A stretch of 64,000 nt of DNA, taken from IMG/VR virus record IMGVR_UViG_3300034102_002101, positions 56,667 through 120,666 of that record. One strand, 5' to 3'. The notes below the pieces were generated by a model. It searched no databases. It was not told the origin of the DNA and saw nothing but the letters and a program-made list of their open reading frames with translations. The DNA comes from a virus. Shown here piece by piece: positions 3,594-41,773 of the stretch (the stretch's first letter is position 1; the number at the start of each line of letters is the position of its first letter). The position numbers were made by a program, and so were the translations under genes.

Positions 3594-4028
3594 ATGACTA
3601 CGAAAGAATTACGATCAATAATACAGGAAATAGTTGCTAAGGAAATAAAAGAACAATTTCCAGCACTTATTAGTGAGATATTAGGAAGCAAGAACGCGAA
3701 GTTACCATTACAACGCAGAGAATTCGCACCAATAGCGGAGCAGAAGAGATCAACAGTGACAATAAAAACAGGAAATCCAGCACTCGACAAGATACTATCA
3801 GAAACTACTGGTCTCCCTAGGGAAGCATCTTCTCCAAACGTATCCAGTGAATTTGGTTTGATTGGGGAAGGTACTGTTATTCCACAGACAGATATAAATG
3901 GGAATGAGGTCAATATAGATGCCCTACCAGAATCAATATCAAACATATTTAAGAAAGATTATTCGGCATTACTAAAAAAAGCAGATAGCATAGCAAAGAA
4001 GACACATCGTGGCAACTCCCCTCTATAA
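3594..4028 (+). CDS. Hypothetical virion-block protein
   Basis: 144 aa. The N-terminus is an amphipathic helix (ELRSIIQEIVAKEIKEQF); the rest is low in predicted structure and rich in Pro/Ser/Thr. The 3' end overlaps the gp25-like gene by 20 nt. Position between spike and gp25 suggests a baseplate or gp53-like accessory role, but no motif supports that. Family not recognised. Confidence 0.55.
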   Translation: MTTKELRSIIQEIVAKEIKEQFPALISEILGSKNAKLPLQRREFAPIAEQKRSTVTIKTGNPALDKILSETTGLPREASSPNVSSEFGLIGEGTVIPQTDINGNEVNIDALPESISNIFKKDYSALLKKADSIAKKTHRGNSPL

Positions 4029-4422
4029 AAAGTCACCTGTCGGTATATCATTTCCTATACAACGAGGAAATACTGGGTTTTTTGAACAAACGTTCGATTC
4101 TAACGAATCTTCTAAGACAAACATAAAACTATTGTTATCAACGTATATAGGAGAAAGAAGACTAAATCCATCTTACGGGACAAAGTTATGGACATATCTA
4201 TTCGAAAACATAGATGACACATCCGAAGAAATATTAAAAAACATAATAAGTGAGGATGTCAATAAATGGATACCAGATATTAAAATAATATCTGTTAGTG
4301 TAGCAAAAAAAGCAAACTCTGCTGATAATTATACATTTATAATAACCATGACATTTTATTCTTCACAATACGCAAAAGAGTTGCAGGTTTTAAGTGTGGA
4401 AAATAGTGTTAGTATCAAATAA
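4009..4422 (+). CDS. 25: Baseplate wedge protein gp25 (GPW/gp25 lysozyme-like family)
   Basis: 137 aa starting at GTG 4009. The core (NIKLLLSTYIGERRLNPSYG, then TKLWTYLFEN) is the classic gp25/GPW fold signature: a leucine-rich strand, an invariant Arg, N/PxYG and a following LF. gp25 is a conserved contractile-injection-system baseplate component that contacts gp6 and the sheath. It overlaps the preceding gene and is followed after five bases by gp6, as in T4. Confidence 0.9.
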   Translation: MATPLYKKSPVGISFPIQRGNTGFFEQTFDSNESSKTNIKLLLSTYIGERRLNPSYGTKLWTYLFENIDDTSEEILKNIISEDVNKWIPDIKIISVSVAKKANSADNYTFIITMTFYSSQYAKELQVLSVENSVSIK

Positions 4423-4427
4423 TAACC

Positions 4428-6278
4428 ATGTCAACCAATAAAACATTTACACAGAACAAGAAAAATATTTCTTATCTATCCAAGGATTTTAATCAATTAA
4501 AACAATCTCTGGTAGATTTTTCTAAGTATTACTACCCAAACACATATAAAGATTTTGGTGAAAGTTCTCCCGGTATGATGTTTATAGAATTGGCATCATA
4601 TGTCGGTGATGTTATGGCATTTTACGCAGATTCTCAGGTACAGGAAAGCATATTAACATTGGCGACCGAGAGAAAGAACATAATAAACGAAGCTAATTCT
4701 GCCGGATATAAAATAAAAAATACGTCTCCGTCACAAGTAGTATTGGATGTTTATCAAGTTATTCCGAGCACAGTAGATAGTAATGGTGATACTGTTCCTA
4801 ATTATAACTATGTACAAACAATAAAAGAAGGAATGTCAACGTCAACATCGGACGGTATTTCCTTTATAACTAGCGAAATCATAGATTTTAATGTGGATAC
4901 ATCAATTTCTCCTCGCGAATTATCGGTATTCCAAAGAGATCAAAATGGTATACCGCAAAATTACATATTAAAGAAAAGCGCGAAAGCTTTTTCCGCGAAT
5001 AGGAGAGCGATTGACGTTATCATCAATGCAGCGTCAAAATATTATACAATAAATTTAGAAGAATCTAACGTTATATGTGTAGAAAGTATGGTGGATAGTG
5101 ATGGGCAGAAATGGTATGAAGTTGATTGTTTGGCGCAAGAATTGGTACCAATCACCGTAAAAAATAGTTACACAAATAATCAAAATTTATACTTGGAAAA
5201 GTCAACAGTCCCATACATATTAAAATACATAAGGACATCGAACAGATTCATAACTAGGATAGATACCAACAATTTAACATCGATAGAGTTTGGTGCGGGG
5301 ACAGATGAGTTATACGATGAGGAGTTCTTGATGTCTCCAAATAATCTGGCACTTAGTAGCGCAAGAATTAATTCAGCAACAGATCCATCAAATGTACTAA
5401 ACACAAGAAGCTATGGAAGGGCACCAGCAAATACCACATTAACTGTTACGTATCTATATGGTGGTGGAGTAAATACAAATGTATCTGCAAATTCAATAAT
5501 AAACGTAAATTCTATCGAGTTTGATGGTGATGATAGGGATTTAACTGCCGACGAAATTAACACAATAAAAGCAGCGAGAGCGTCTATACGGGTAACTAAT
5601 CCGTCACCAGCTTCGGGTGGTGGTGACGCAGAAACGGATGAGGAGATTAGGAATAACGCAATATCGCATATCAATTCACAGAAGAGAGCAGTGACTGCCG
5701 AAGATTATGTACTACGTTGCTATTCATTACCAACCAAATATGGTTCAGTTGCCAAGGCTTTTTCAAGAAAATCAGAATTTGGTGTTAATTCTATAGACAT
5801 ATATGTGTTATCATACGACGAGAATAAAAAATTAACATCGATAAACTCATCCCTTAGTGAAAATCTAAAGACATATTTAGGTACATATAAGCTAATGACT
5901 GATTCCATATCTATTGTAGACGGTAATATTATCAACGTAGGAATAGATTTTAAAATATCCGTACAAACAGGTTACTTAAAAAAGGAAGTATTATCCAATT
6001 GCATAAAAGTTGTTCAAGGCTTCATGAATATAGATAATTGGCAATTCAATCAGCCAATAGACATAAGTAGAATACAGATGGAGATAGGTAATGTTGATGG
6101 TGTACAATCCGTTATGTTCGTAAAGGTAAAGAACTTAACCAAAGCCGATGGTAACTATTCATTAAACGTATACGATATCGCGTTCGCAACACAGGATAAT
6201 ATAGTATATCCATCTATCGACCCTTGTATATTCGAATTAAAATATCCAAGTAAAGACGTTCGTGGAGAATACTTATAA
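4428..6278 (+). CDS. 6: Baseplate wedge protein gp6 (baseplate J family)
   Basis: 616 aa, close to T4 gp6 (660). The N-terminal block (SYLSKDFNQLKQSLVDF, SSPGMMFIELASYVGDVMAF, then YADSQVQESIL) is characteristic of gp6/baseplate-J proteins, and a central Gly-rich turn (SPASGGGDAETDEEIRNNA) marks the J-like domain. gp6 dimers form the inner ring of the baseplate wedge. It lies directly after gp25, as in T4-type gene order, and starts without a ribosome-binding sequence. Confidence 0.9.
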   Translation: MSTNKTFTQNKKNISYLSKDFNQLKQSLVDFSKYYYPNTYKDFGESSPGMMFIELASYVGDVMAFYADSQVQESILTLATERKNIINEANSAGYKIKNTSPSQVVLDVYQVIPSTVDSNGDTVPNYNYVQTIKEGMSTSTSDGISFITSEIIDFNVDTSISPRELSVFQRDQNGIPQNYILKKSAKAFSANRRAIDVIINAASKYYTINLEESNVICVESMVDSDGQKWYEVDCLAQELVPITVKNSYTNNQNLYLEKSTVPYILKYIRTSNRFITRIDTNNLTSIEFGAGTDELYDEEFLMSPNNLALSSARINSATDPSNVLNTRSYGRAPANTTLTVTYLYGGGVNTNVSANSIINVNSIEFDGDDRDLTADEINTIKAARASIRVTNPSPASGGGDAETDEEIRNNAISHINSQKRAVTAEDYVLRCYSLPTKYGSVAKAFSRKSEFGVNSIDIYVLSYDENKKLTSINSSLSENLKTYLGTYKLMTDSISIVDGNIINVGIDFKISVQTGYLKKEVLSNCIKVVQGFMNIDNWQFNQPIDISRIQMEIGNVDGVQSVMFVKVKNLTKADGNYSLNVYDIAFATQDNIVYPSIDPCIFELKYPSKDVRGEYL

Positions 6279-6280
6279 TT

Positions 6281-7378
6281 ATGCATACGTTTTTATACCC
6301 AACAGCTACTACATTTATAAACTCCCAGCCAAGTTTGATGGATCAAAACATGGGCAAGGATGAAATATTGGAAATAGAAAAGATAGTTACTGATGGTGCT
6401 GTTATTATAAGCGGGTCAATCACTAACTTTTCCGCTTCGGTCTATATATCCAGAACGCTACTAAAATTTGATACTTCTGATATATCTAGGAGTGTTTCTG
6501 TCGGTGATATTCCCTTCCCGACGATGCAATTAAAATTGTACTCCATCGAGTCTAAAAACATCCGCGATACTTACAAAATAGAATGCTTTCCGATAAGCGG
6601 GTCGTGGAGAAATGGTATCGGAAAAAAGTATGATGCTTATAATAGCAACTATGGAGTATCGTGGGTAAGCAGGGGAGATAATTCTCTCGGTGATTGGAGT
6701 AATGTTGGTGGAGACTTTTATAGTGGGTCACATTCCTCGGTAATTATAACACAAAAACAGGACATTTCAATCGATGTATCGAACTTGATTTCTGATTTTT
6801 TCTCTGGGTCTATTGTGGATGATGGATTTTTGTTAAAGCTATCGGACGAAACATCGTCGGTAGATTATGGAACAATAAGACATTTCTCCATGAATACCAA
6901 CACTATATATTCACCATTCCTTGATATTGGTTGGGATGATTCGGAATATAATATTGTAAGTTCTAGTGTATTAGATTCAAATAAACAAGAATATTTAGTT
7001 ATACCGAAAAATATAAAAAAAATATATAATGTTGATGAAATAGTTAGAATAAATTTAGCCGTTCGCCCGAAGTACGTTAATAAAACTTTCCAGAAATGGC
7101 CAAATCAAACATACCCTTATAACGATTATGTTGCTTCTTACGTGTTACCATCAAGTTCGTATTATGCTATAGTCGATGCCGTAACTAATGAACACATATT
7201 AAATTATGATCAATTTACAAAAGTTAGTTCAACAGATTCCGGCAGTTACTTCTTCGTTGATTTTAGTTGCTTCCCTAGAGAGAGATATTATAAAATTCAT
7301 ATAAAGGTTATAGAAGAAAACCAAACGGTCAATATTTATGATACGGGTATTCCTTTCAGGATAACCGGTACATCATAA
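6281..7378 (+). CDS. Tail/baseplate structural protein, DNRLRE-like fold
   Basis: 365 aa, beta-rich. The start (FLYPTATTFINS) and the lines SRTLLKFDTSD, QLKLYSIES and WRNGIGKKYDAY resemble DNRLRE/CBM96-like beta-sandwich modules found in secreted and virion proteins. It follows gp6 after two bases and is itself followed after one base by the next gene, so it is co-expressed with the wedge genes. Its place matches T4 gp7/gp8, but sequence identity to either is not evident. Confidence 0.55.
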   Translation: MHTFLYPTATTFINSQPSLMDQNMGKDEILEIEKIVTDGAVIISGSITNFSASVYISRTLLKFDTSDISRSVSVGDIPFPTMQLKLYSIESKNIRDTYKIECFPISGSWRNGIGKKYDAYNSNYGVSWVSRGDNSLGDWSNVGGDFYSGSHSSVIITQKQDISIDVSNLISDFFSGSIVDDGFLLKLSDETSSVDYGTIRHFSMNTNTIYSPFLDIGWDDSEYNIVSSSVLDSNKQEYLVIPKNIKKIYNVDEIVRINLAVRPKYVNKTFQKWPNQTYPYNDYVASYVLPSSSYYAIVDAVTNEHILNYDQFTKVSSTDSGSYFFVDFSCFPRERYYKIHIKVIEENQTVNIYDTGIPFRITGTS

Positions 7379-7379
7379 A

Positions 7380-7796
7380 ATGAAAATAACATATAGTAAC
7401 CCAAATCTATCAGAGCATAGTGTAAAGAATATAGAATCGTCATATGTCTTTGATAGTAATTCGAACTTAAAGCTATTCGTTAATTCGTCTTCTGTTGGTA
7501 ACAACATAGCTATGGATTTTATTGGTTATAACCCAAACCAATCGGTAATATCTGAATTTTATGATGTTGAATTTACCGAATTAAAACCTGTTAATGTGTT
7601 AGTTGTTACTCCATCTACTTCGATACCGACCGAAACATCAACACAAGTAAGTTCAACGATAATCATCGATAATCCATCGACTATATCCGATAGTATGATG
7701 ACAAGAGATGTGATAGTGAAATTAAGAATTGGTCTAGGTGAAGGGCGTAATTCGGATGATTTTTCGACTACCTTCCCATATGGAAAGATAACATAA
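7380..7796 (+). CDS. Hypothetical structural protein
   Basis: 138 aa, beta-rich and Ser/Thr/Pro-rich in the C-terminal half. It is packed between two structural genes with one-base gaps on both sides, so it is very likely a baseplate or tail part. No family recognised. Confidence 0.55.
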   Translation: MKITYSNPNLSEHSVKNIESSYVFDSNSNLKLFVNSSSVGNNIAMDFIGYNPNQSVISEFYDVEFTELKPVNVLVVTPSTSIPTETSTQVSSTIIIDNPSTISDSMMTRDVIVKLRIGLGEGRNSDDFSTTFPYGKIT

Positions 7797-7797
7797 A

Positions 7798-10700
7798 ATG
7801 CAAACATACATCACTTCACAATCGGCAGCGATAAACTACTCGACGTTTATAACCCAAGAGGATATAAATAAATTATCACTGTCCACCATTTCACCAATGT
7901 ACAGCGATTTTGGTGAATTTGCGGATGATGTCATTGAGTTTTCTATATACAATAACTACGGGGAGTTAGTTTCGTGGGAGACGATATATCCGGAAGTTAG
8001 TAGTACAAAGTATACTGGTTTCTATATCGATCAGAACAATATAAAGAACACTTTTGATGCGTACAACACATACACAAATTATTCAATAGTAACTACTAAC
8101 GGAATAAGAAGAATAGTATTTCCTGTCCTTTCTGATATACAGAAATTAGGATTATCTACCGGTGAGTATAATATCCAATACTTCCCCGCAAAAAACGTCA
8201 TAGGCAACAACGAAAATGGAATAAAGGTGTCCGAGATATCGTCATCCGGCACAGAAATATCTGTTATCTGTAATGATGTAAACCTATCTCAGTCGTTTAC
8301 TTCTTTCTGTAAGAACCTGATACCGGCTTCTGAGTGGACAAGTTATTTGATTGATGGAATGGATTCGGTTAACATATATTCTAAGTTCATAACAGAAAAG
8401 GACAGTATCGGTCTAGACTTCAACGCAATAAAGTTCTTTTTCAATTTCAAGACAGATAATGAGGTACTGTTCTTCGTCTATGATATATTTAATGGTGTAT
8501 ATTCGGGAAAAAAGAAGTCTAATGGTGATGTATCTAGGACAGACATAGCATCAATAAAAACGCAAGTAGAAAATTATTGTTACTCCCTATACAATACTCC
8601 GTCCAGCTTAGATTCTGTTTTTTTGACCTCTCTAGACATTATAAAAAATATTATAGAAATAGAACTAAAAAAGATATCGAGCAGCGCAACGAACGAAAAA
8701 ACGGTATCGTTTTTCTACAATATATTTACCTCTGTGCTATTAGAGGTGTTCGGTGAAATAAAGAAAAAGGTAATATCTAAATTGTTTTCTCCGATGAAAA
8801 CATGTATAAACTTAGGCAATGGAAAAATATTTCCAGTATTAAATAGATACTATGTAGTGTTGGATGATGGTAGTCTCAAGTTATATTTGAAATTGAAGGA
8901 TAGCATATCTAACATAATTTCGTCGGGTGATATAGTATACGTTACAAATTTTAATACATTAACCGGAATATACCAAAATATTTCTTTAATCAATAAAAAT
9001 TTAATAAATTTTAATTATTTAGGTGGTCCAAACTTCAATGATAGAATCAAGCACGTACAGACCGGAAATTCCGGTAGATCGTATAATTCAGATGAATTAA
9101 ATAGTTCCATATCATCAGTAACAACGATAAATGCGAGCGATAAGATCAACGTCGATTACAGATACTTCGAGAATTTCATAAAGTTCTCATCGGTATCATC
9201 CAGATTGGAAGTATATACAGGTAAAATAAACTTGGTGGAGAATATCGACTCCAGTATAGAGCTACTAAGTAATGTAGAAAATTCAGAAACCGATATTTCG
9301 TTACTTACGGAGAATAAGAATGAGATAATAAAATCGTTTGATGGATATGAAAACTTTCTATACACTAATCCATATTGGTTCGGTGTACATACTACACAAT
9401 ACGGCACGTATTCCATAAGTGGGGATGCACCAGAAACGTCTGGAAGTTTATATGATAGGGATAATACCGAATCGTTATTCAACAATACTCCGGAAACAAT
9501 AAGAGAATCTACTGAGAGTTCCGACTATGTTAAATTTGTTAACATGGTCGGTCACATGTTTGACAATATCTGGATTTATATCGATAATTTTCCACGAACA
9601 AAAACTATAAAAAATAACCCATCTGGTTCCCTGTCTCCATCTATAATAGGTGACATCATAGAATCGTATGGGTGGGAGTGTAATAATGGGAATCATAACC
9701 TAGAACTCCTACAGGGTCTATATAATAATAGTAATGGGAATTCGAACCAAACTCTTTCCGGTAATGAAAGAACTAATGAGATATGGTCAAGAATAATAAA
9801 TACACTACCAGAAATATTAAAAACCAAAGGAACATTAAAATGTGTCGAGTTAATATTGGCTTGCTACGGTATTCCCAAAAACATAATAAAAATAAAAGAA
9901 ACATCAACATCGAATAGTGACGGTGAACTATATCATAATGATATAATAAAATATTCTCCTAAGTTCACAAAGTATAACGAATACGTTGAGTGTGCATGGT
10001 TAAATGGTTGTAGATCATTAGAATTAACAATAAAATATCAGTCGTCCGATTACACAAAAAATTCAACTAATAGATTAGTTCAGTGTGGGGATAAATGGTC
10101 AATAGGGACGATAAAAGGAAGCAAAGATAATGGAAATGTATTTTTTACCATAAGGGATGTATCCGGTTCTGTTAATTCACTAATCGTCCAAAATGTACCT
10201 ATTTTTAGTGGAGATAATTATGATGTACTATTAAGAAAATATGACACTGAATTAATAACCGTACCTACTCGATTTGAACTTACGGTGTTAAAAATGGAAA
10301 ATGGTTCACCATCTTTTGTAGCCTCAGAAGATATATACCTAAGTGGTAGTTTCTTAGACACATTTAATTCCGGTTCAGAGTTAATCAGATTTGGTAATTA
10401 TAATGCCGACCAAAACAACTACTTCATCGGTAATATCGACGAGATAAAAATATGGAATAGCTTTATCGCCGATGTTGAGTTTATAGATCATTCTACGATG
10501 TATGACAACTTTTCTACAGATGATCTATCCAAGGCTCGGGATAATTTAATATGTAGAATGGCATTTGACACACCAGTTGATTTATATAATCCAACCGGTT
10601 CGTTCTATCTACACGCGAATAACGGATTACAAAATAATGGTGTAGAATATATCAAGATGTATAACTTTAGAGAAGCAGATATTTCTACTAAAGTTGTTAA

Positions 10701-26888: not shown

Positions 26889-26916
26889 TTGACATCCACC
26901 TTAGATTGTGCTTTCT
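26889..26916 (+). promoter_or_regulatory. Leaderless-type promoter for the PARP operon
   Basis: TTGACA at 26889-26894 with a weak -10 (CTTTCT at N16). The TTG is 37 nt before ATG 26926, mirroring the divergent promoter. Confidence 0.45.
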
Positions 26917-26925
26917 TTTAGAAAG

Positions 26926-28161
26926 ATGAAACAAATTAAAACTATTTTCAAATTAATAAAAGTTGATTCCAAGGAAAATTCAAATAAATTCTGGAATGGG
27001 ATTATTTATGACGATGGTTCTGCTCGCACGGAATGGGGGCGGGTCGGATATTCTTCACAGTCAAAAGATTTCTCGTGTTCATTGGTAATAGAAAAAAAGA
27101 AAAATGAGAAGTTAAAGGATGGTTATGAAGAACTAAAAATTGTATTAGAAGGAGTTTCTAATCTATTACCAGCATTGGATCAAAAGAAATCACTACTAGA
27201 AATCGCAAAGAAGCAAATAAAAACATCGTCTTCCAAGTTGGACGACCTGATTCAGAGACTGGTGAAGAGTAATATCCATAATATTACGAGTTCCACCCAA
27301 TTGAAGTTTGATTCGTCAACTGGATTGTTCCAGACCCCACTAGGAGTCGTTTTACCGGAAGCAATAACAGATGCACGCGACTTGTTGGTAGAGATTAAAC
27401 AAAATTACCAAAGTCCAGCTAAATTAGAAAAACTTGTCGTGAAATACCTAAGACTTATTCCACATGATATCGGAATGAAGTTTAATGTTAGAAACATTTT
27501 CCCAGACGAGAAACAAATCGAAAAGGAAAATGATATTCTTGACTCATTGAATGCCTCTTATGATGCTATTCAAAATAACTCAAATTCTAAGTTATTTAAG
27601 AAGTTAGAAGAAAAAATATTTGACATTGAAATTGACATATTACAGGACAAAGCAGAATTCGATAGAATCTCTAAGTGGTTTTATCGTAGCAACCACGCGA
27701 CTCATGGATACAAGAATGTAAAAATTGCTAATTGCTATAAATTGAATACGGGATTTGACTTCGATGGTAAGCTAGGAAACATAACCGAAGTATTCCATTC
27801 AACTGGAGAAGCAAATCTATTGAGCATTTTAAAGTCCGGTCTTCGTGTATCTCCACCAGCTACTGCTTATATTAGTGGATTATTGTATAGTTCTGGTGTG
27901 TATGGTGCTGTCGATAGCTCAAAATCCCTACAATATACATTCGGTAGATTCGGTGGGAGTGTTGGTAGTTCTGGTTGGTGCTTTATTGCCGAATTTGCGA
28001 TGGGAAGACAATATAATATAACTACGTATGGGGGTAAATTACCGATTGGATATGATTCGATTTATGCAAAAAAAGAATTGACGGGGCTTAGATTTGATGA
28101 ATTGATCGTCCCACAGTCAACTCAAGTAAAATTAAAATATTTGCTAGAAGTAACAAAATAA
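26926..28161 (+). CDS. WGR-domain poly(ADP-ribose) polymerase-like protein
   Basis: 411 aa. Residues ~5-60 are a WGR domain (NKFWNGIIYDDG, RTEWGRVGYS), which binds DNA in PARP1-3. After a helical regulatory-like region, residues ~280-411 form a PARP catalytic domain with the full H-Y-E triad: His291 (VFHSTGE), Tyr326 (SSGVYGAV) and Glu392 (RFDELIV), ending in VKLKYLLEV as eukaryotic PARPs do. It should transfer ADP-ribose from NAD+ to protein or nucleic acid. An upstream TTG start (26908) is rejected in favour of ATG 26926 on promoter spacing. It is followed by a helical DNA-binding-like gene and a strong terminator. Confidence 0.85.
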   Translation: MKQIKTIFKLIKVDSKENSNKFWNGIIYDDGSARTEWGRVGYSSQSKDFSCSLVIEKKKNEKLKDGYEELKIVLEGVSNLLPALDQKKSLLEIAKKQIKTSSSKLDDLIQRLVKSNIHNITSSTQLKFDSSTGLFQTPLGVVLPEAITDARDLLVEIKQNYQSPAKLEKLVVKYLRLIPHDIGMKFNVRNIFPDEKQIEKENDILDSLNASYDAIQNNSNSKLFKKLEEKIFDIEIDILQDKAEFDRISKWFYRSNHATHGYKNVKIANCYKLNTGFDFDGKLGNITEVFHSTGEANLLSILKSGLRVSPPATAYISGLLYSSGVYGAVDSSKSLQYTFGRFGGSVGSSGWCFIAEFAMGRQYNITTYGGKLPIGYDSIYAKKELTGLRFDELIVPQSTQVKLKYLLEVTK

Positions 28162-29255: not shown

Positions 29256-29894
29256 TTAGTTTATCTTTCTTGCCATTATATCACCTTCACCGAATGGATG
29301 TCCATCAGCAGCATAAAATTCAAATTCAAATCCATTATCAGTCAAGAACTTCTCGATTGATTCTTTGGATGAATGTCCTTTATAATATGCAACTTGTGCG
29401 GCTTCTAGGTGAATATATTTTACATTCTTGATGATCTGTTCAAAACCTTCAAGTACAGCTAGTTCATGTCCCTGTACATCCATCCATACAACTAATGATG
29501 TTGTGTCTAATTGTGGATTTTCTGACATAAATGCATTTACTGTAGTCGCATCAACTTCTATTTTGCTCTTATCTTGACTACCAAACGGAACATGGATTGG
29601 TTCCAGTATTGATGAGCATCCAATATTCCCATCAGTTACCCAAAAATCAACTTTTCCTACATAATTGCTAAGTGCTAAATTATGGACTTTTATATTTGTA
29701 TATCTGCGGCTCTTGTCTTCACAGATATTATACTGATTTGGTGTTGGTTCAAATGCTGCAATTTCACATCCACGCCAAATAGCGTCAAATTCTTCTGACT
29801 GGTCTAAGTCTCTGGAACCAATATCCAATATTAGCGATGGGACGAATGCTGGTTCGTATTTTTGTATGTAATTTATAAATTTTGATATAAGCAT
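29256..29894 (-). CDS. FkbM-family methyltransferase
   Basis: 212 aa with FkbM motifs: LILDIGSRD (SAM loop), AFEPTPNQY, NLALSNYVGKVDFWV, SLVVWMDVQGHELAVLEG (the conserved D-V/I-QG-E-x-x-VL-x-G) and YIHLEA. FkbM enzymes O-methylate sugars or polyketides. One-base gap to the next gene; part of the minus-strand glycan operon. Confidence 0.88.
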   Translation of the reverse strand: MLISKFINYIQKYEPAFVPSLILDIGSRDLDQSEEFDAIWRGCEIAAFEPTPNQYNICEDKSRRYTNIKVHNLALSNYVGKVDFWVTDGNIGCSSILEPIHVPFGSQDKSKIEVDATTVNAFMSENPQLDTTSLVVWMDVQGHELAVLEGFEQIIKNVKYIHLEAAQVAYYKGHSSKESIEKFLTDNGFEFEFYAADGHPFGEGDIMARKIN

Positions 29895-29899
29895 ATTTG

Positions 29900-30514
29900 T
29901 TATCCTAAGTATGTTGATTTGTGATATTCGTAATGTTCGTTTGTTAAATTATACTTTTGCCAATAAAAGTCAATATTATTTTCTGGTAATTTATTAATAC
30001 AATAATCGAAGTATTCTTTCGATTCTTCGAAAGACACTATATTCGTTCCGTGTTTCTTATTATAATTATTTAGTAGTATTCGCTCGGCAAATTCTCCATT
30101 ATGTTCATCTATTGTCCAGAAATCTATTAGATCGTCTGTTTTTCCATACATCAGATAGTCAACCATATAACCATCTACGTGCCATGTGTAAAATATTATC
30201 TTACCCGTATACATTTCTTCAAGTATACTTGCGAATTCCTCTATTTTAGGTATAGAAAAATCAGTTCTGATCTTTAATGAAAATTCATATCCCATTAATT
30301 TAGCAAGAGCCAATCCACATAAAGTAGTATTAGCTTGTCTATTTATATTTCCTACTCCACCGTCAGCGACATCTTGACATTGGTATATATTAATTATATT
30401 ATCGTAGTTATAATCATTGGTAAATATTATATGGTGTGCCTTTGTATAATTTGTTACTAAATTATACAAATTTCCTTTCACTGGTCCTTGTATGACTACT
30501 GCGGATTTATTCAA
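29900..30514 (-). CDS. WavE-like glycosyltransferase
   Basis: 204 aa. AVVIQGPVKGNLYNLV at the start, GNINRQANTTLCGLALAKLM and FSLKIRTDFSI are signatures of the WavE lipopolysaccharide-synthesis family (QGP, NRQ, KIRTD). These transferases act in outer-core or O-antigen assembly. It overlaps the RuBisCO-like gene by eight bases. Confidence 0.7.
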   Translation of the reverse strand: MNKSAVVIQGPVKGNLYNLVTNYTKAHHIIFTNDYNYDNIINIYQCQDVADGGVGNINRQANTTLCGLALAKLMGYEFSLKIRTDFSIPKIEEFASILEEMYTGKIIFYTWHVDGYMVDYLMYGKTDDLIDFWTIDEHNGEFAERILLNNYNKKHGTNIVSFEESKEYFDYCINKLPENNIDFYWQKYNLTNEHYEYHKSTYLG

Positions 30515-31718
30515 CTTTTAATCCCCACTTTTTAATAGCCGCTTGATATTCGATCCCATAATCCTTATCTATAGATTGGCGCATTGCCTTGGTTCCAGCC
30601 AAAGTGCCGAGTGGATGGGAGCTTAATGCGCCACCAACATTCGCCATCCAGTCAGAGTGTCCAACTGTTTTTATTATGTATTCAATCAAACCAGGATGCA
30701 TTCCGCAACTCAAAGCAGCAACGCTATTCTGTTTAGTTAGTGTATCTATTGACTTTAATGTATTTTCCGCATCATCCAAATAACCACCGATCATACCTGC
30801 ATGTAGAGTATCGCAACCAGACATAGATACAATTTTAAATAGTAGATTTTGTGATATGTGATAATCGTGAGTCGGGTGAGTCAGTAGACGATCACCGCTC
30901 TTCTGATAATGTAATAAAATCGGTAAGTCTAATTGGCGTATTGATTTGTATATACCAAACCCACAGTGGAAATTAGTATGTACTCCATTTATACCGTTCT
31001 GTTCATGTAGCTTTACTATTCTGTCTAGAAGGAACGGGGAGTCCGCATTAATAGATACACAATAAAATACATTAGATTTCTGGCTTCTGATATAATTCAT
31101 CACCAAGTCAGTTCTCTTGTATACATCACAATGTTTCGGATTGCTCAATATTTCGTCTTCTTTTATGAAGTTACACCCACCATCAATTAATTGCTTAACT
31201 AAATCTAAATGACGTTCTGGGGATAGTCCTATCTTTGGTTTAACTATCCCACCGAACAATGGTTTTCTGCTATCTACGTTACATATCTTACGCATACCAG
31301 ATAGACCAATCTTTGGTCCGAGCAATACCTTTTCCATGTTAGTGGTGAATGTTATATCATTCAAATAGCATTTCTTAATTATATCTATATCCATCTGCCC
31401 ACCCATACATTGAACCAATAATTGAGAAATTCCATCGGTAGCGAAATCTATATTATTCTCCGGAAATGCGATAAACACTATTCCTTCTGTTTTTCCCTTT
31501 AATTCATCTTCATCAGCAAGAATTAAACAACTATGATCGTCTATTAGTTCCTGCGTTTCAAATTCAGATCTAGCGGATGGATTACCTATCGATTGACCGA
31601 TTGCCAAATTCCATGCCGCTTCTCTTAAAGTTGATGATGACTTTAAGTAGTACTCACAAATGTAATGTGTATCTTTTAATGTTCCGGTATTTATGTTTTT
31701 AAAAATATTGTAATTCAT
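30507..31718 (-). CDS. RuBisCO-like protein (form IV)
   Basis: 403 aa, the usual length of RuBisCO-like proteins. Visible family motifs: GGIVKPKIGLSPERH (Lys160, Lys162), FIKEDEI (Lys186, Asp188, Glu189; the carbamylated-lysine motif), LLHYQKSG (His270), LHAGMIGGYL (His306) and GGALSSHPLGTLAGTKAMRQ. The loop-6 lysine of true RuBisCO (GKLEG) is replaced by Tyr (GGYLDD), and the Arg after the catalytic His is also lost, so it should not fix CO2. RuBisCO-like proteins act as enolases, isomerases or decarboxylases on sugar-acid phosphates. Its place between a cupin, a nucleotidylyltransferase and glycosyltransferases points to synthesis of an unusual sugar. Confidence 0.88.
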   Translation of the reverse strand: MNYNIFKNINTGTLKDTHYICEYYLKSSSTLREAAWNLAIGQSIGNPSARSEFETQELIDDHSCLILADEDELKGKTEGIVFIAFPENNIDFATDGISQLLVQCMGGQMDIDIIKKCYLNDITFTTNMEKVLLGPKIGLSGMRKICNVDSRKPLFGGIVKPKIGLSPERHLDLVKQLIDGGCNFIKEDEILSNPKHCDVYKRTDLVMNYIRSQKSNVFYCVSINADSPFLLDRIVKLHEQNGINGVHTNFHCGFGIYKSIRQLDLPILLHYQKSGDRLLTHPTHDYHISQNLLFKIVSMSGCDTLHAGMIGGYLDDAENTLKSIDTLTKQNSVAALSCGMHPGLIEYIIKTVGHSDWMANVGGALSSHPLGTLAGTKAMRQSIDKDYGIEYQAAIKKWGLKVE

Positions 31719-31719
31719 A

Positions 31720-32040
31720 TTATACTTCGTATTTATCTCCGACGATTGATGGGATCTTTACTACTATTAATTTAGAGTCTTCTACTGGAGTCGCAAATAC
31801 TACCTCATTTGGGTGAAGAATAAATACTTGACCAGCCAAAATCGTTTCACTGTTTATTATCATTTTCCCCTCGACTAGTAAATTTATTTCTGTTGCTATC
31901 TTGTGATAATGTGGGGTTATTACCTCGTCCTTATGGTGGATTTTATAGCAAACTTCCGCTTTATCGGTTTTGAATGCTGTTGGTAAAAAATCACCAACAA
32001 ACCAATTTCCCTTCATTTCATTTAAATTAAGTATTGTCAT
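31720..32040 (-). CDS. Cupin-domain protein
   Basis: 106 aa, a single cupin barrel: PHYHKIATEINLLVEGKMI (metal ligands HxH and Glu) and GQVFILHPNE (second cupin motif). Small cupins of this type are sugar isomerases, epimerases or regulators. One-base spacing to the RuBisCO-like gene suggests that the two act on the same intermediate. Confidence 0.8.
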   Translation of the reverse strand: MTILNLNEMKGNWFVGDFLPTAFKTDKAEVCYKIHHKDEVITPHYHKIATEINLLVEGKMIINSETILAGQVFILHPNEVVFATPVEDSKLIVVKIPSIVGDKYEV

Positions 32041-32042
32041 TT

Positions 32043-32753
32043 TTATAGATTTCTTAGAGCTTTATATGATTCGTAATCCTCGGGAGTTCCTATTGGATAA
32101 TGGAGGTTAAATTGAAACGGCATTAACTTCTTACCACATGCTATCAAATTATTGAACGTTTCTGACAAGTAATATTCCCCATTAACTGTTTTTCCACTGG
32201 CAATCAATTCTTCTGTTGATTTTACGAATAAAATGCCAGACTTCCAGTAATGAAAACCGTTGGTTGCTGTGTTGCTTATTACTTGCTTCTCTCGCAACTC
32301 AATTATTTCGTTCTTTTCGTTTACTTTTACGTAGCTATTTTTTGGACTAGTGGAATGGAATGTTCCTAAGCATCCATCTAAATTATTGGTTTCACAATAA
32401 CTTAAAAATAGTTCCATGTTTAGATCTTCTATTATCTGGTCACAGTTCGTTACTATTAATGGAACATCGTTATTTACATATTCGCGTGCAAGCAACGCTG
32501 AACATGCTGGTCCAGATGGAACATAATCAATCTCGATAACATTTACGCCCAATAGACACAGTTGATCTTTGGTAATTTGATTCTTATTAATTATAATTGT
32601 ATAATCAGCATTTTCATATCTCAAATTCCATAATACTGCATGTATCATTGATGTGCGCCCTATCGGAAGAAGAGCCTTTGGTACTGTATATCCAGCATCA
32701 AAAAACCTTTGACTTTTTCCTGCCATTGGTATCACTATGTTTATTTTACTCAT
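32043..32753 (-). CDS. Sugar-phosphate nucleotidylyltransferase
   Basis: 236 aa with the NTP-transferase signature VIPMAGKSQRFFDAGY followed by PKALLPIG, the metal site VTNCDQII and the sugar-site segment NGFHYWKSGILFV. It activates a sugar 1-phosphate to NDP-sugar for the glycosyltransferases of the island. It overlaps the next gene by four bases. Confidence 0.85.
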   Translation of the reverse strand: MSKINIVIPMAGKSQRFFDAGYTVPKALLPIGRTSMIHAVLWNLRYENADYTIIINKNQITKDQLCLLGVNVIEIDYVPSGPACSALLAREYVNNDVPLIVTNCDQIIEDLNMELFLSYCETNNLDGCLGTFHSTSPKNSYVKVNEKNEIIELREKQVISNTATNGFHYWKSGILFVKSTEELIASGKTVNGEYYLSETFNNLIACGKKLMPFQFNLHYPIGTPEDYESYKALRNL

Positions 32754-33184
32754 TTTTTAAATTTTTCTATGTAATCTGAACATATACCTATACTTCCAGT
32801 TGGTATATTAAACCCATGAAGCTCCGGTAATACACATATTCCCCCACTCGAATCTAATCCGGTATAATACCAAGAATGTCCATAACTAGTAATAACTACT
32901 GGTTCTGTTGTATGATAAAATACGTGGTATCGTTGTTCTGATAGTATCTTAAATGCTTCTAAATTTTTCGCATGAATCCATATGTTTTCTCCCCAACCAT
33001 CTAGCGTAGATTGACTTATTCCGTAGTCTGGTTTGTCATGACCTAACCAGAAAGTTCTGTTTTTATACCACACATCGATCTCGACAATATATCCTTTGGA
33101 TATCGCCGAGCTTATGTATATTGGCTCGTTCTCCCAATTTTCGAGTCTACCGTTAATGTTTCCTCTATGTGAAATTAAGATCAT
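32750..33184 (-). CDS. Glycerophosphodiester phosphodiesterase-like protein
   Basis: 144 aa from ATG 33184. MILISHRGNINGRLEN, AISKGYIVEIDVW and TFWLGHDKPDYG reproduce the GDPD/PI-PLC barrel start (HRG, E-x-D, HD), with the catalytic His pair and the metal-binding acids present. It is shorter than bacterial GDPDs (~250 aa). It may process a glycerol-phosphate-containing glycan. Its start overlaps the end of the FkbM gene by four bases. Confidence 0.72.
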   Translation of the reverse strand: MILISHRGNINGRLENWENEPIYISSAISKGYIVEIDVWYKNRTFWLGHDKPDYGISQSTLDGWGENIWIHAKNLEAFKILSEQRYHVFYHTTEPVVITSYGHSWYYTGLDSSGGICVLPELHGFNIPTGSIGICSDYIEKFKK

Positions 33185-33795
33185 TTTACTTTCTGGTAGA
33201 ACGCATCTCCCCAACCATGGTTGGTGTCGTGCATATGTGTGCGTTTAAATCCGAATTGACTCAAATATTTATCGATACCATCCACAGTGACGCACCCCTC
33301 ATATAATTCCTCGTAATTGACCTCGGTATATACATAATCAATATCGTTAGTCAGTAGTTTTTCCGCCCCACACAAAACTTTATATTCTGCTCCTTGAACG
33401 TCTATAAAAAGAGCGTTAAAGTTTCCTTCTTCGTTTACATAAAATTCATCGAGGGTAACGCAGTCTACTTCTATCTGTTTCTCATAATTTATGTGTGGAT
33501 AATAATTTTTGTGATTCTTGAGATTTAAGATAGACGAAGATGAACCATCATTATTTGATACGTTAAATTTTATCTTACCATTAAAGTCAGAAACAGCATG
33601 GTTATAACCATCTTGATTAGGATACTGCGATAATCTATCCATCAATCTTTTATATATCTCTGGGTTAGCTTCATGCCAAATAACAAATTCGGCACCCATC
33701 TGCTGGTAAAAGTCACGCTCCTGTCCTTCATGCGCTCCGACATGAATGACTCCACGCAGTTTTCCATGTAATTCCTTTACTAGATTTATTTCCAT
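33181..33795 (-). CDS. FkbM-family methyltransferase
   Basis: 204 aa. GVIHVGAHEGQERDFYQQMG (SAM loop), VIWHEANPEIY, NHAVSDFNGKIKF, VDCVTLDEF and ALFIDVQGAEYKVLCGAE are the FkbM motif series. A second FkbM gene at 29256-29894 is only distantly similar, so the two probably methylate different positions. Confidence 0.9.
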   Translation of the reverse strand: MEINLVKELHGKLRGVIHVGAHEGQERDFYQQMGAEFVIWHEANPEIYKRLMDRLSQYPNQDGYNHAVSDFNGKIKFNVSNNDGSSSSILNLKNHKNYYPHINYEKQIEVDCVTLDEFYVNEEGNFNALFIDVQGAEYKVLCGAEKLLTNDIDYVYTEVNYEELYEGCVTVDGIDKYLSQFGFKRTHMHDTNHGWGDAFYQKVK

Positions 33796-34467: not shown

Positions 34468-35199
34468 TTAATTTATCTCCATTTCGCAGATTTGTTTATT
34501 GTAAAAACTTCCTTCTATCATGTATGGTCTAGTTTTTCTCCCATGCACAAATTCATCTAGCGCACTACCTACGTCAATGTATTGATTTCGTGGGTTGAGT
34601 TTCCATAATAAGTATATTATGGCTTCACTTAGTGGTCCGACTGATATGAAAAAGGTTTGTCCTGATGTATTATTAAAGGACTCTCCTAAAATTTGCATTA
34701 TTTGTCCCTTATTTTCTTCCCACACGTTAACACAATCATTTCCGAATGACATATAATCACTTACATTAAACGGATATTTTTTATTTTCTCCGTTTTCATT
34801 AGCGATTATAGTAATGTCTTTCTTTAGCGTTGTCAGTCTATCGATAAATCTATTGTAGTTTCCATTTATCCATAGATTCGCAAACGTTACATATTCTCTA
34901 TCTTGCTTTATGTTATTCAATAGCCATTGTTTATCTTCGGTATTGGATGAGTCACATGATATTGCATAATAATAATATGGATCAACACAACTTAAAGATT
35001 CACGTAGATCTTTTCCCAATTTTGTAATTCCTGTTGGTGCAGACCATCTATCAACATCTGTTGCTTGGCTTCCTCCACCAATTGGGATTCCTTTCATTAA
35101 ACATATTTCACCATCCGCATATCTAGCATGTGCGAATGGCAAATTAGATTCTATTCTATTCCACGCATTATCGAAATCCTCTTTAAATAACTTTTTCAT
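34468..35199 (-). CDS. GT-D fold glycosyltransferase-like protein
   Basis: 243 aa. LPFAHARYADGEICLMKG contains the RYxDGE motif that marks the metal-binding loop of GT-D (DUF1792) glycosyltransferases; later SVGPLSEAIIYLLWKLN and YIDVGSALDEFV also fit that fold. It overlaps the epimerase gene by 17 bases. Confidence 0.68.
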   Translation of the reverse strand: MKKLFKEDFDNAWNRIESNLPFAHARYADGEICLMKGIPIGGGSQATDVDRWSAPTGITKLGKDLRESLSCVDPYYYYAISCDSSNTEDKQWLLNNIKQDREYVTFANLWINGNYNRFIDRLTTLKKDITIIANENGENKKYPFNVSDYMSFGNDCVNVWEENKGQIMQILGESFNNTSGQTFFISVGPLSEAIIYLLWKLNPRNQYIDVGSALDEFVHGRKTRPYMIEGSFYNKQICEMEIN

Positions 35200-36181
35200 T
35201 CTTTAATATTTCTAGTATTTTCTGTGCGCTATTACCATCACCATAAGGACAATGATTCATCATTGGTGTAGGATTCTTTATGTGCTCATAAAACAAATCC
35301 TTTAGGTTTTCTATGGTTGTTAGAAAGCTGGTATTTCCAACCGATTCTGGTCTTTCTGTTGCATCTCTACACACTAATATCTTCTTATTTAGAAATGAAC
35401 ATTCCTCCTGCAATCCACCACTATCAGAAATAACCAGCGAACAAGACAACAATTCGTTTATCATTTCGTCATATGGTAACGGTTCAATAACATTTACATT
35501 ACAAAGTATTTCTCTGTGTTTTCTTACATTTGGGTTTGGGTGGATAGGAAATACAAAATTATAATCCAAAAATTCTGTTGCTAGTTCATTTATTTTCTTG
35601 AACCACTCGTCGATCTTATCATGATTTTCTCTTCTGTGTAAGGTAATTAAAATCTTTTTCGCCAATGTTGTTCTTTCCCGCATATTGACCAATCCATCTA
35701 ATCCAGTATTACCAACAACATATATAGATTCATATTTTATATTTTCTCTTAGTAAATTTATTATATTATCCGTTGTTGGGCATAGATGTATATCTGCTAA
35801 TTTTGTTATTAAGCATCGGTTCATTTCTTCTGGATACGGATTGTTGAAATCTCCGCTTCTGAGCCCAGCTTCTAAATGTATTACTTTTATTTTTCTGTGA
35901 TATGCCGTCAATGCCATACCAAATGCGGAAGAAGTATCTCCCTGAACTAATACGTGGGTTATGCCATCAAATATATAACCACGATTTAAGCACGATTGTA
36001 TCACTGAATCTAACCTATTATCACCGTCAGATATCTCCAACTTATAATCAAAATCTACACCGAATAGTAGAGTCGTATGCTGTCCCGTAAAAACTGTTTT
36101 ATATGACTCTCTAGGTAAAATCTTCAATAGTGAAGACACCTTTATCATCTCGGGGCGTGTGCCTATTGCTATAAGTATCAT
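35183..36181 (-). CDS. wecB: UDP-N-acetylglucosamine 2-epimerase (WecB-like)
   Basis: 332 aa from ATG 36181. MILIAIGTRPEMIKVSSLLK, FTGQHTTLLFGVDFDY, VLVQGDTSSAFG, HLEAGLRSGDFNNPYPEEMN, VVGNTGLDGL and VISDSGGLQEECSFLNKK are the full motif set of this GT-B-fold enzyme, which interconverts UDP-GlcNAc and UDP-ManNAc. The upstream in-frame ATG at 36205 lies inside the preceding gene and is less likely. Confidence 0.92.
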   Translation of the reverse strand: MILIAIGTRPEMIKVSSLLKILPRESYKTVFTGQHTTLLFGVDFDYKLEISDGDNRLDSVIQSCLNRGYIFDGITHVLVQGDTSSAFGMALTAYHRKIKVIHLEAGLRSGDFNNPYPEEMNRCLITKLADIHLCPTTDNIINLLRENIKYESIYVVGNTGLDGLVNMRERTTLAKKILITLHRRENHDKIDEWFKKINELATEFLDYNFVFPIHPNPNVRKHREILCNVNVIEPLPYDEMINELLSCSLVISDSGGLQEECSFLNKKILVCRDATERPESVGNTSFLTTIENLKDLFYEHIKNPTPMMNHCPYGDGNSAQKILEILKNEKVI

Positions 36182-36957
36182 ACGTTTTCCTTTATCAACT
36201 TCCAACCAGCAATTCTCTGATCTACGAATGCTTGGTTCATCAAATGTTTAAATGGTACCCCTTCCGGTGATCTTTGGTTGGTTTCCCACATTGAATTATT
36301 ATCGCACGCATACTTGATATGTGCTATATTGCACCACATGTCTTTATTATCAATTGGGTGTGGAGGAACGTATGTTTTTATGTTACCATATTTTTGTAAC
36401 ATATGACTAAAATGCATATCCTCTTTACATATAAAATATTTTGGATCTGGTAATTCTCTCCAATACATACTTAACCAATCTCGCCTAAAAAACCAGGAAT
36501 GTCCTACGAAATCTACCTCGGTAATTTCATTGGATTGTCCACCATCTACCCAACCGAAACGTGTATAATGCTCGTAATATGAACTTCGTTCTGGTGGGTT
36601 TGGTTGTGAGTATAATAGACCTACTCCACCCATTAAACCATTCTTAATGTTTATAGAATTTATACAGTTTTCCAACCACAGTGGACCTGGAACCATATCA
36701 TCGTCAAATACACAGACATATTCGGTTCTAGAATTTAGTGCATATGCAAATCTCGCCCATACTCCGAGATTTTCATTTGATATGGCGCTGCTTACTTTTT
36801 CTGTGATACCGTAGTTAACATCACCTTTATCCGGATAATTGTACCACAACATTATTTTTTTTGGTACTATACTTCCATTGTTCAATGCGTTAACTTGTTC
36901 ATCTAGACATTCCCCGCGACGGAACCCATTCAAAATTACGGTTACTTCTTTGTTCAT
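36178..36957 (-). CDS. Family 2-like glycosyltransferase
   Basis: 259 aa. VTVILNGFRRGECLDEQ, CVFDDDMVPGPLWLENCI (DxD), VDFVGHSWFFRRDWL and FICKEDMHFSHMLQKYG (the ED acceptor motif) are GT-A glycosyltransferase features. Four-base overlaps on both sides place it firmly in the glycan operon. Confidence 0.82.
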   Translation of the reverse strand: MNKEVTVILNGFRRGECLDEQVNALNNGSIVPKKIMLWYNYPDKGDVNYGITEKVSSAISNENLGVWARFAYALNSRTEYVCVFDDDMVPGPLWLENCINSINIKNGLMGGVGLLYSQPNPPERSSYYEHYTRFGWVDGGQSNEITEVDFVGHSWFFRRDWLSMYWRELPDPKYFICKEDMHFSHMLQKYGNIKTYVPPHPIDNKDMWCNIAHIKYACDNNSMWETNQRSPEGVPFKHLMNQAFVDQRIAGWKLIKENV

Positions 36958-41073: not shown

Positions 41074-41773
41074 TTATAATAATTCATTTATTATATCATC
41101 AACCAATTTTGGTAAAATTTCCGAGGATTTCCCATATATAGTTTTATGGAATCTACCATCAAGAAAACACTTTTCTTCATTTACGAATATTGTATAACCA
41201 CCCAATTGTTTTACTTGCAATACAAAATCAGACGCAGGAAACACTGTCATTGACGTACCTACAGTAATATATAGATCCGTAAAATTCAATATAGAATCAA
41301 TTGTATGTCCATGCATAATTTCTTCTCCGAACAATACAACTTCCGGTCGTTCTAAGTCTGGATTTAGTGGTTCATTACCCCAATCAACGGCAACATTAGT
41401 GTCTATCCTTCTCTTTTTCGATAAACTTCCATGCATATGGATAACATGATTAGATCCAGCCTGTTCGTGTAAAATCATCGATATTTTGCGTGACAATATT
41501 AAAGCATCCAATTTTATTATTCCTCCAATGATTTTCTAATTTAACCAACGCAAAATGACCAGCGTTTGGTTTATAATCATTTTCAATATATCTTCTCTTT
41601 CTTTCATTGAATGCTTCTATTGATTTAACTCGATTGGTTCGTAGTGATTGTATGGTAGAAAATTCCTTAAAATCAGTTCCCCATAACTTATCTTCTCCTG
41701 TTCGGTATGTTGGTATTCCACTCTCAGCGGATATACCAGCACCAGTCAATATTGTTACATTCTTATATTTCAT
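41074..41773 (-). pseudogene. Sirtuin (NAD-dependent deacylase), frameshifted
   Basis: Two overlapping frames together make one Sir2-family protein. The first (from ATG 41773) has VTILTGAGISAESGIPTYRT and FNIVTQNIDD; the second continues LHEQAGSNHVIHMHGSL, DWGNEPLNPD, RPEVVLFGEE and YITVGTSMTVFPA. They join at a run of four T (minus strand; 41471-41474), where one extra T breaks the frame. Without it the conserved TQNIDDLHEQAG...HG active-site segment is restored. The two Cys pairs of the usual zinc ribbon are not seen. It may be a disrupted gene, a programmed +1 shift or a sequence error. Confidence 0.8.

Follow-up and report, generated by a model that had tools for sequence, protein, structure and literature searches.

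We analyzed a 64,000-nucleotide stretch of viral DNA (the window) from a 120,666-bp IMG/VR virus contig and found that it encodes a RuBisCO-like protein (RLP) which, judged by sequence against the sampled RuBisCO forms, belongs to a distinct form-IV-like clade. The clade occurs in hundreds of uncultured aquatic phages and a few ocean bacteria, and the genes conserved around it are likely to produce an activated sugar for glycans of the surface or the virion. We propose, with a probability of about one half, that RLP works as an interchangeable enzyme, a phosphosugar isomerase or epimerase, that would feed a sugar-phosphate nucleotidylyltransferase (NTP), the product entering such glycans. More tentatively, the protein would catalyze a new RuBisCO-fold isomerization or epimerization for an undescribed nucleotide-activated glycan unit, on a modular cassette that phages would disseminate and that would pass between them and bacteria such as SAR11. 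RLPs with known roles act in sulfur salvage and sugar-acid catabolism, and we know of no role of the RuBisCO family in sugar activation for surface or virion glycans; a phage clade tied to sugar-nucleotide genes would thus be an anabolic, viral role for this fold. A literature search covering few subscription journals and no preprints turned up no account of an RLP from phages or SAR11 or from a nucleotide-sugar cassette.

The RLP gene and its clade

The RLP gene (positions 30507–31718) encodes 403 amino acids from an ATG start; the first-pass annotation had the span right, but the open reading frame lies on the minus strand. The protein matched Pfam PF00016 (RuBisCO_large) at 1.6e-30, its top PDB sequence match was a form III RuBisCO (1.6e-26), and its top NCBIfam match was also form III RuBisCO, with 141 bits against a cut-off of 497 bits. 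An AlphaFold model computed from an alignment of 54 relatives had a mean pLDDT of 95.2 and matched the form III RuBisCO of T. kodakarensis (3kdo) in a Foldseek search of the PDB (5e-29, TM 0.85). These matches bear out the RuBisCO fold first proposed for the protein; the gene is real, and its membership in the superfamily is far beyond chance. The IV-Photo proteins (C. tepidum 1ykw and RLP2 2qyg) scored about 56–59 bits by phmmer, below form III. A search of the BFVD predicted viral structures with the RLP model found no RuBisCO fold (TM ≤ 0.40), and tblastn with RLP against 50,697 INPHARED phage records gave zero matches. That the gene is phage-encoded, as had been claimed, is upheld by genes for a baseplate wedge protein, a primase, an SbcC-like protein and a Dda helicase-like protein within the window. 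The window also holds a gene (26908–28161, plus strand) for a phage protein in which a WGR domain is joined to PARP regulatory and PARP catalytic domains (Pfam 6e-05, 2e-08 and 3e-15), a eukaryote-like PARP1 architecture, and a SIR2-family gene (41074–41773, minus strand) in two overlapping frames (41450–41773 and 41074–41511), each half matching PF02146; this split is a frameshift or an assembly error.

Close relatives of RLP in IMG/VR numbered 15 (47–64% identity), and an alignment-based scan of IMG/VR found the RLP clade on 237 contigs. Clade members scored at least 316 bits, and the next-best RuBisCO-superfamily proteins scored below 135 bits. Close pairs of relatives had dN/dS values of 0.03–0.08, which indicates purifying selection on the gene among them. 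Among cellular genomes, a scan of GTDB yielded 10 RLP-clade loci, mostly in SAR11 single-cell and metagenome assemblies, together with Azospirillum oleiclasticum and a further alphaproteobacterial assembly. The clade was present in 2 of 297 genomes of the SAR11 order, in 1 of 337 genomes sampled from the class of Azospirillum and in 1 of 345 sampled Bacteroidia genomes, the last on a 3.3-kb Crocinitomicaceae contig. Crocinitomicaceae is doubtful as a cellular host, given that contig's length and an RLP 100% identical to that of a viral contig (L065 in our locus numbering). The Crocinitomicaceae MAG contig (L017, DORI01000002.1) is probably a misbinned phage contig.

In a FastTree phylogeny of 94 sequences, from which IV-Photo and named DeepYkr or GOS references were absent, all 55 RLP members grouped together with a support of 0.979 and a stem of 0.65, distinct from forms I, II and III and from OiaX-like, MtnW/4nas and 3qfw-type proteins. 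The phylogenetic check proposed with the first-pass annotation thus places RLP outside each of these sampled clades.

Active site of RLP

Nineteen active-site positions were mapped on an alignment of 54 diverse clade members, and 18 of them were invariant, the 19th being His or Gln. The Mg/carbamate triad K186/D188/E189 (equivalent to K201, D203 and E204) was present in all 54 sequences, as were the equivalents of K175 and K177 (K160 and K162 of RLP) and of S379, G381, G403 and G404. RLP therefore has the Lys and Asp/Glu Mg ligands by which the superfamily is recognized, with a Lys predicted to be carbamylatable. Eight replacements were uniform throughout the alignment: E60G, T65N, N123G, H294Q, R295K, H298D, K334Y and G380C. 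The clade has its own set of invariant motifs (GQSxGNP, MGGQ, HxQKSGD and GGY).

Most of the active-site features first read from the sequence held up in this alignment. The KEDE carbamylation motif is K186-E-D188-E189 and is invariant in the 54 members; the loop-6 Lys is indeed absent, K334 being replaced by the invariant Y313, and so is the Arg after the His, R295 being replaced by the invariant K273. Two catalytic His residues had also been claimed, which is half right: H306 is the equivalent of H327 (His in 49 sequences, Gln in 5), but H270 aligns with H292, and the position of the catalytic H294 is occupied by Q272 in 54 of 54.

With a RuBisCO fold and without the carboxylation residues, RLP is a form IV RLP in the broad sense. 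The residue pattern may be read as one in which the residues for CO2 addition are gone, one phosphate site is reshaped and the machinery for enolization is left. Since the carboxylation residues are lost and the metal triad is kept, RLP is not expected to be a carboxylase and is probably an enediolate-forming phosphosugar enzyme.

Three known identities were tried and rejected. A bona fide carboxylating RuBisCO of forms I–III does not fit, because E60, N123, H294, R295 and K334 are G, G, Q, K and Y in all 54 sequences. MtnW is the DK-MTP-1P enolase, whose step is followed by acireductone dioxygenase, and OiaX is the 3-oxo-isoapionate-4-P decarboxylase. RLP scored 89.7 bits against the NCBIfam cut-off of 513.6 for MtnW, lies outside the MtnW clade and has Gly, not Lys, at position 123; for OiaX it scored 95.2 bits against a cut-off of 700 and lies outside the OiaX-like clade.

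The cassette and its variable member

RLP lies in an almost gapless minus-strand run of five open reading frames that encode a GDPD-like protein, NTP, a cupin, RLP and a glycosyltransferase. The small single-domain cupin (31720–32040, minus strand, 106 aa; phrog_24762, 1.9e-29) carries H44, H46 and E51, which are invariant and correspond in the alignment to the metal-site motif; 9 of 11 members of its family matched Cupin_7, at best at 4e-07. NTP (32043–32753, minus strand, 236 aa) matched Pfam NTP_transferase (5.5e-09) and phrog_3980 (2.2e-51), and its profile matched PDB 4evw at 3.5e-26. The glycosyltransferase gene (29900–30514, minus strand) shares 8 bp with the stop end of the RLP gene. 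The neighbors named in the first-pass annotation were therefore correctly placed, with the cupin at 1 bp, NTP beside the cupin and the glycosyltransferase overlapping RLP, but the WavE likeness of the last is weak (Pfam WavE E value 0.001, below the cut-off). Homologs of this WavE-like glycosyltransferase occur near RLP in 13 loci.

That annotation had missed a fourth cassette member, the short GDPD-like protein (32750–33214, minus strand; phrog_34507, 3e-28), whose likely ATG start is at 33184 (residue 11). Its motifs HRGN..EN..EID..GHD..H.K are invariant or nearly so. The profile matched GDPD structures at 5e-05 over the N-terminal third only; the protein is half-size, and a structure search with its model (pLDDT 94) gave no clear full-length or full-barrel PDB match. 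Elsewhere, GDPD-like sequences are fused to a glycosyltransferase-like domain (L032:8206-9276) and to a methyltransferase-like domain (L092:11232-12392), the domain types being assigned by sequence similarity. The surrounding glycan island of the window encodes FkbM-type methyltransferases in the same operon-like run (29256–29894, minus strand; Methyltransf_21, 4.7e-17) and upstream of the cassette (33181–33795, minus strand; Pfam 3.1e-20), and a UDP-GlcNAc 2-epimerase-like protein (WecB; 35183–36205, minus strand; Epimerase_2, 5.6e-69; NCBIfam wecB above the cut-off).

The cassette is conserved. Within eight genes of RLP, 90 of 94 loci had NTP, 80 had the GDPD-like gene and 75 had the cupin; the complete set of four occurred in 64. 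The cupin was not found in 19 loci, a count that includes some missed by ORF selection, such as that of A. oleiclasticum (L026). Within three genes in 48 dereplicated loci with enough flank, the corresponding numbers were 43 for NTP, 39 for the GDPD-like gene and 37 for the cupin, nearly all on the same strand as RLP. In A. oleiclasticum, whose RLP is 35% identical, all four genes form an operon (L026: GDPD 3942-4373, RLP 4495-5637, cupin 5647-5964, NTP 6018-6719), and this locus gave the sole strong GDPD-like match among 399 Pseudomonadota genomes. Directly after this cassette (6771-9568) lie genes that we identified by eye from sequence motifs as CysD/NodP and CysNC/NodQ, sulfate-activation genes that hint at a sulfated glycan in Azospirillum. 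The SAR11 copies of RLP lie among genes for GDP-mannose dehydratase-like, epimerase and flippase-like proteins, identified partly by eye. These chromosomal copies, which adjoin polysaccharide genes, point to a glycan of the cell surface no less than to one of the virion. The linkage of RLP to nucleotide-sugar genes, first seen in a single window, is thus conserved across hundreds of phages and some bacteria.

Cultured cyanophages have homologs of NTP, the cupin and the GDPD-like protein but lack RLP. In Synechococcus phages Bellamy and SynMITS9220M01, the cupin-adjacent NTP carries a fused ribose-5-phosphate isomerase B (RpiB) domain; the Bellamy fusion matched PF02502 at 3.9e-32, and the SynMITS9220M01 protein, of the same length, was grouped with it by search. 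The RpiB domain matched PDB 1o1x (1.6e-25), and the catalytic Cys and His-Asn line up in that match. Among 30 IMG/VR loci with this NTP-RpiB fusion, the cupin was directly downstream in 28, the other two lying near a contig edge, and the GDPD-like gene was present in 26. RLP and RpiB were not found together: none of the 30 RpiB loci had RLP, and none of the 94 RLP loci had RpiB. Since the 30 loci are 80–100% identical and represent one cyanophage lineage, the RpiB replacement counts as one event.

A further sample of 80 loci was drawn by the cupin and not selected for RLP, although it is biased to cupins close to that of the window; RLP was present in 64, and most RLP-less loci had a small C-terminal HAD domain on NTP. 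Two loci carry RLP plus an NTP-HAD fusion. In SAR11, 13 GDPD-like genes outside RLP loci each adjoin an NTP of ~460 aa with an N-terminal HAD motif (one cut off by a contig end), and the RLP-positive SAR11 genomes have a plain NTP and RLP. A one-to-one swap of RLP and RpiB as the whole story is weakened, because HAD domains fill the same slot. What stays constant is the pair of GDPD-like protein and NTP, to which a cupin is usually added; what varies is the phosphosugar enzyme (RLP, RpiB or HAD). The HAD_2-nucleotidylyltransferase fusion (L004:7895-9253, L006:14236-15630 and SAR11 loci L288-L300) pairs with the GDPD-like gene as a two-gene activation cassette of its own, present in phages and in SAR11. 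At another locus (L209:4850-5965), a 371-aa protein without a Pfam match stands ahead of the cupin and GDPD-like genes, where NTP/RLP would be.

Proposed reaction, alternatives and known systems

Enediols or enediolates are intermediates common to RpiB and the known RLP isomerases. In the reaction that we propose, RLP would be Mg2+-dependent, with carbamylated K186, D188 and E189 as the metal site, and would convert a phosphorylated keto-sugar to its enediolate and then reprotonate this intermediate, most likely as a ketose-phosphate isomerase or epimerase. NTP would activate the resulting sugar phosphate, and the glycosyltransferases of the island would place the activated sugar in a glycan on the infected-cell surface or the virion. 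RLP, RpiB and HAD domains would then be interchangeable phosphosugar enzymes on an activation core of NTP and the GDPD-like protein, usually with the cupin. We infer that RLP acts on a phosphosugar, that it does so as an isomerase or epimerase, in what order the steps run and what the cupin and the GDPD-like protein contribute; the homology, the invariant active site, the clade, the conserved cassette and the exchange of modules are observed. The exchange with RpiB and HAD turns this proposal into a concrete, cheaply testable prediction of the RLP reaction.

An OiaX-like decarboxylation of a phosphorylated beta-keto sugar acid, with activation of the shortened sugar phosphate, seems unlikely to us. 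The first-pass annotation had suggested such a decarboxylated sugar, or else a branched one, as a possible decoration of DNA or capsid, which stays conjectural. Profile searches put the OiaX type near the top among RLPs (NCBIfam OiaX, 3.7e-27), and position 123 is Gly both in the RLP clade and in the plasmid OiaX examined; however, the RLP clade is separate from the OiaX-like proteins, which retain K334 where RLP has Tyr, and the cassette showed no sugar-acid dehydrogenase or four-carbon acid kinase of the OiaX contexts. Replacement by RpiB points to isomerization, and together with the HAD replacements it favors isomerization or general phosphosugar processing over decarboxylation, although an enzyme that takes the place of another may catalyze a different reaction, since HAD domains also occupy the slot. 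We give similarly little credence to a two-step module in which RLP, as an MtnW-like enolase or as an isomerase like the one ahead of a cupin lyase in the MTA-isoprenoid shunt, would precede the cupin on a diketo or deoxy sugar phosphate. The adjacency of the two genes in most loci, the documented RLP-cupin pair of Rhodopseudomonas (PMC5893883) and an SG motif near position 294 common to the RLP clade and MtnW speak for such a module, but the cupin also stands beside NTP-RpiB and NTP-HAD without RLP, the Lys at position 123 of MtnW is Gly in RLP, and methylthio-salvage genes were not seen in the loci inspected.

The change of five RuBisCO active-site residues would suit a scaffold or binding protein of the glycan pathway that has lost catalysis; with the metal triad intact, 18 of 19 positions invariant and purifying selection strong, we regard that role as very improbable. 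The fold and the closest structures, which are those of form III RuBisCO, are what a carboxylating RuBisCO encoded by an auxiliary metabolic gene of carbon metabolism would have, yet the replacement of K334, N123, E60, H294 and R295 and a glycan context in which no Calvin-cycle neighbors were seen leave this explanation almost no chance. These data also serve as a warning that phage rbcL-like genes should not be tallied as carbon-fixation genes.

The GOS RuBisCO homologs of Yooseph 2007, a lineage called IV-GOS in later reviews, may include the phage RLP clade, which would offer a possible identity for ocean-metagenome homologs that have lacked an assignment since that year. RLPs as a class are already known, and the 2007 account noticed ocean RuBisCO homologs outside the known forms, with altered active-site residues including N123; it differs from ours in that phage, cassette and function are absent from it (PMC1821046). 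In the CDP-6-D-glucitol pathway of Campylobacter jejuni HS:5, a capsule nucleotidyltransferase activates an open-chain ketose phosphate to CDP-6-D-fructose (PMC10918830); that pathway has a reductase and no RLP, and it serves as a chemical precedent only. The Bellamy and SynMITS9220M01 cassette shares the NTP, cupin and GDPD-like families and the same kind of glycan island but has an RpiB domain in place of RLP. In the MTA-isoprenoid shunt of Rhodopseudomonas, the RLP1 isomerase acts before a cupin encoded by the adjacent gene, a working precedent for the pairing of the phage RLP with its cupin (PMC5893883). The form IV RLPs MtnW, RLP1 (the MTRu-1P 1,3-isomerase, DeepYkr) and OiaX resemble the phage protein in fold, in the Lys/Asp/Glu metal triad and in the loss of the carboxylation residues, whereas the phage clade is separate in the sampled tree, has its own invariant motifs and stands with NTP and GDPD-like genes.
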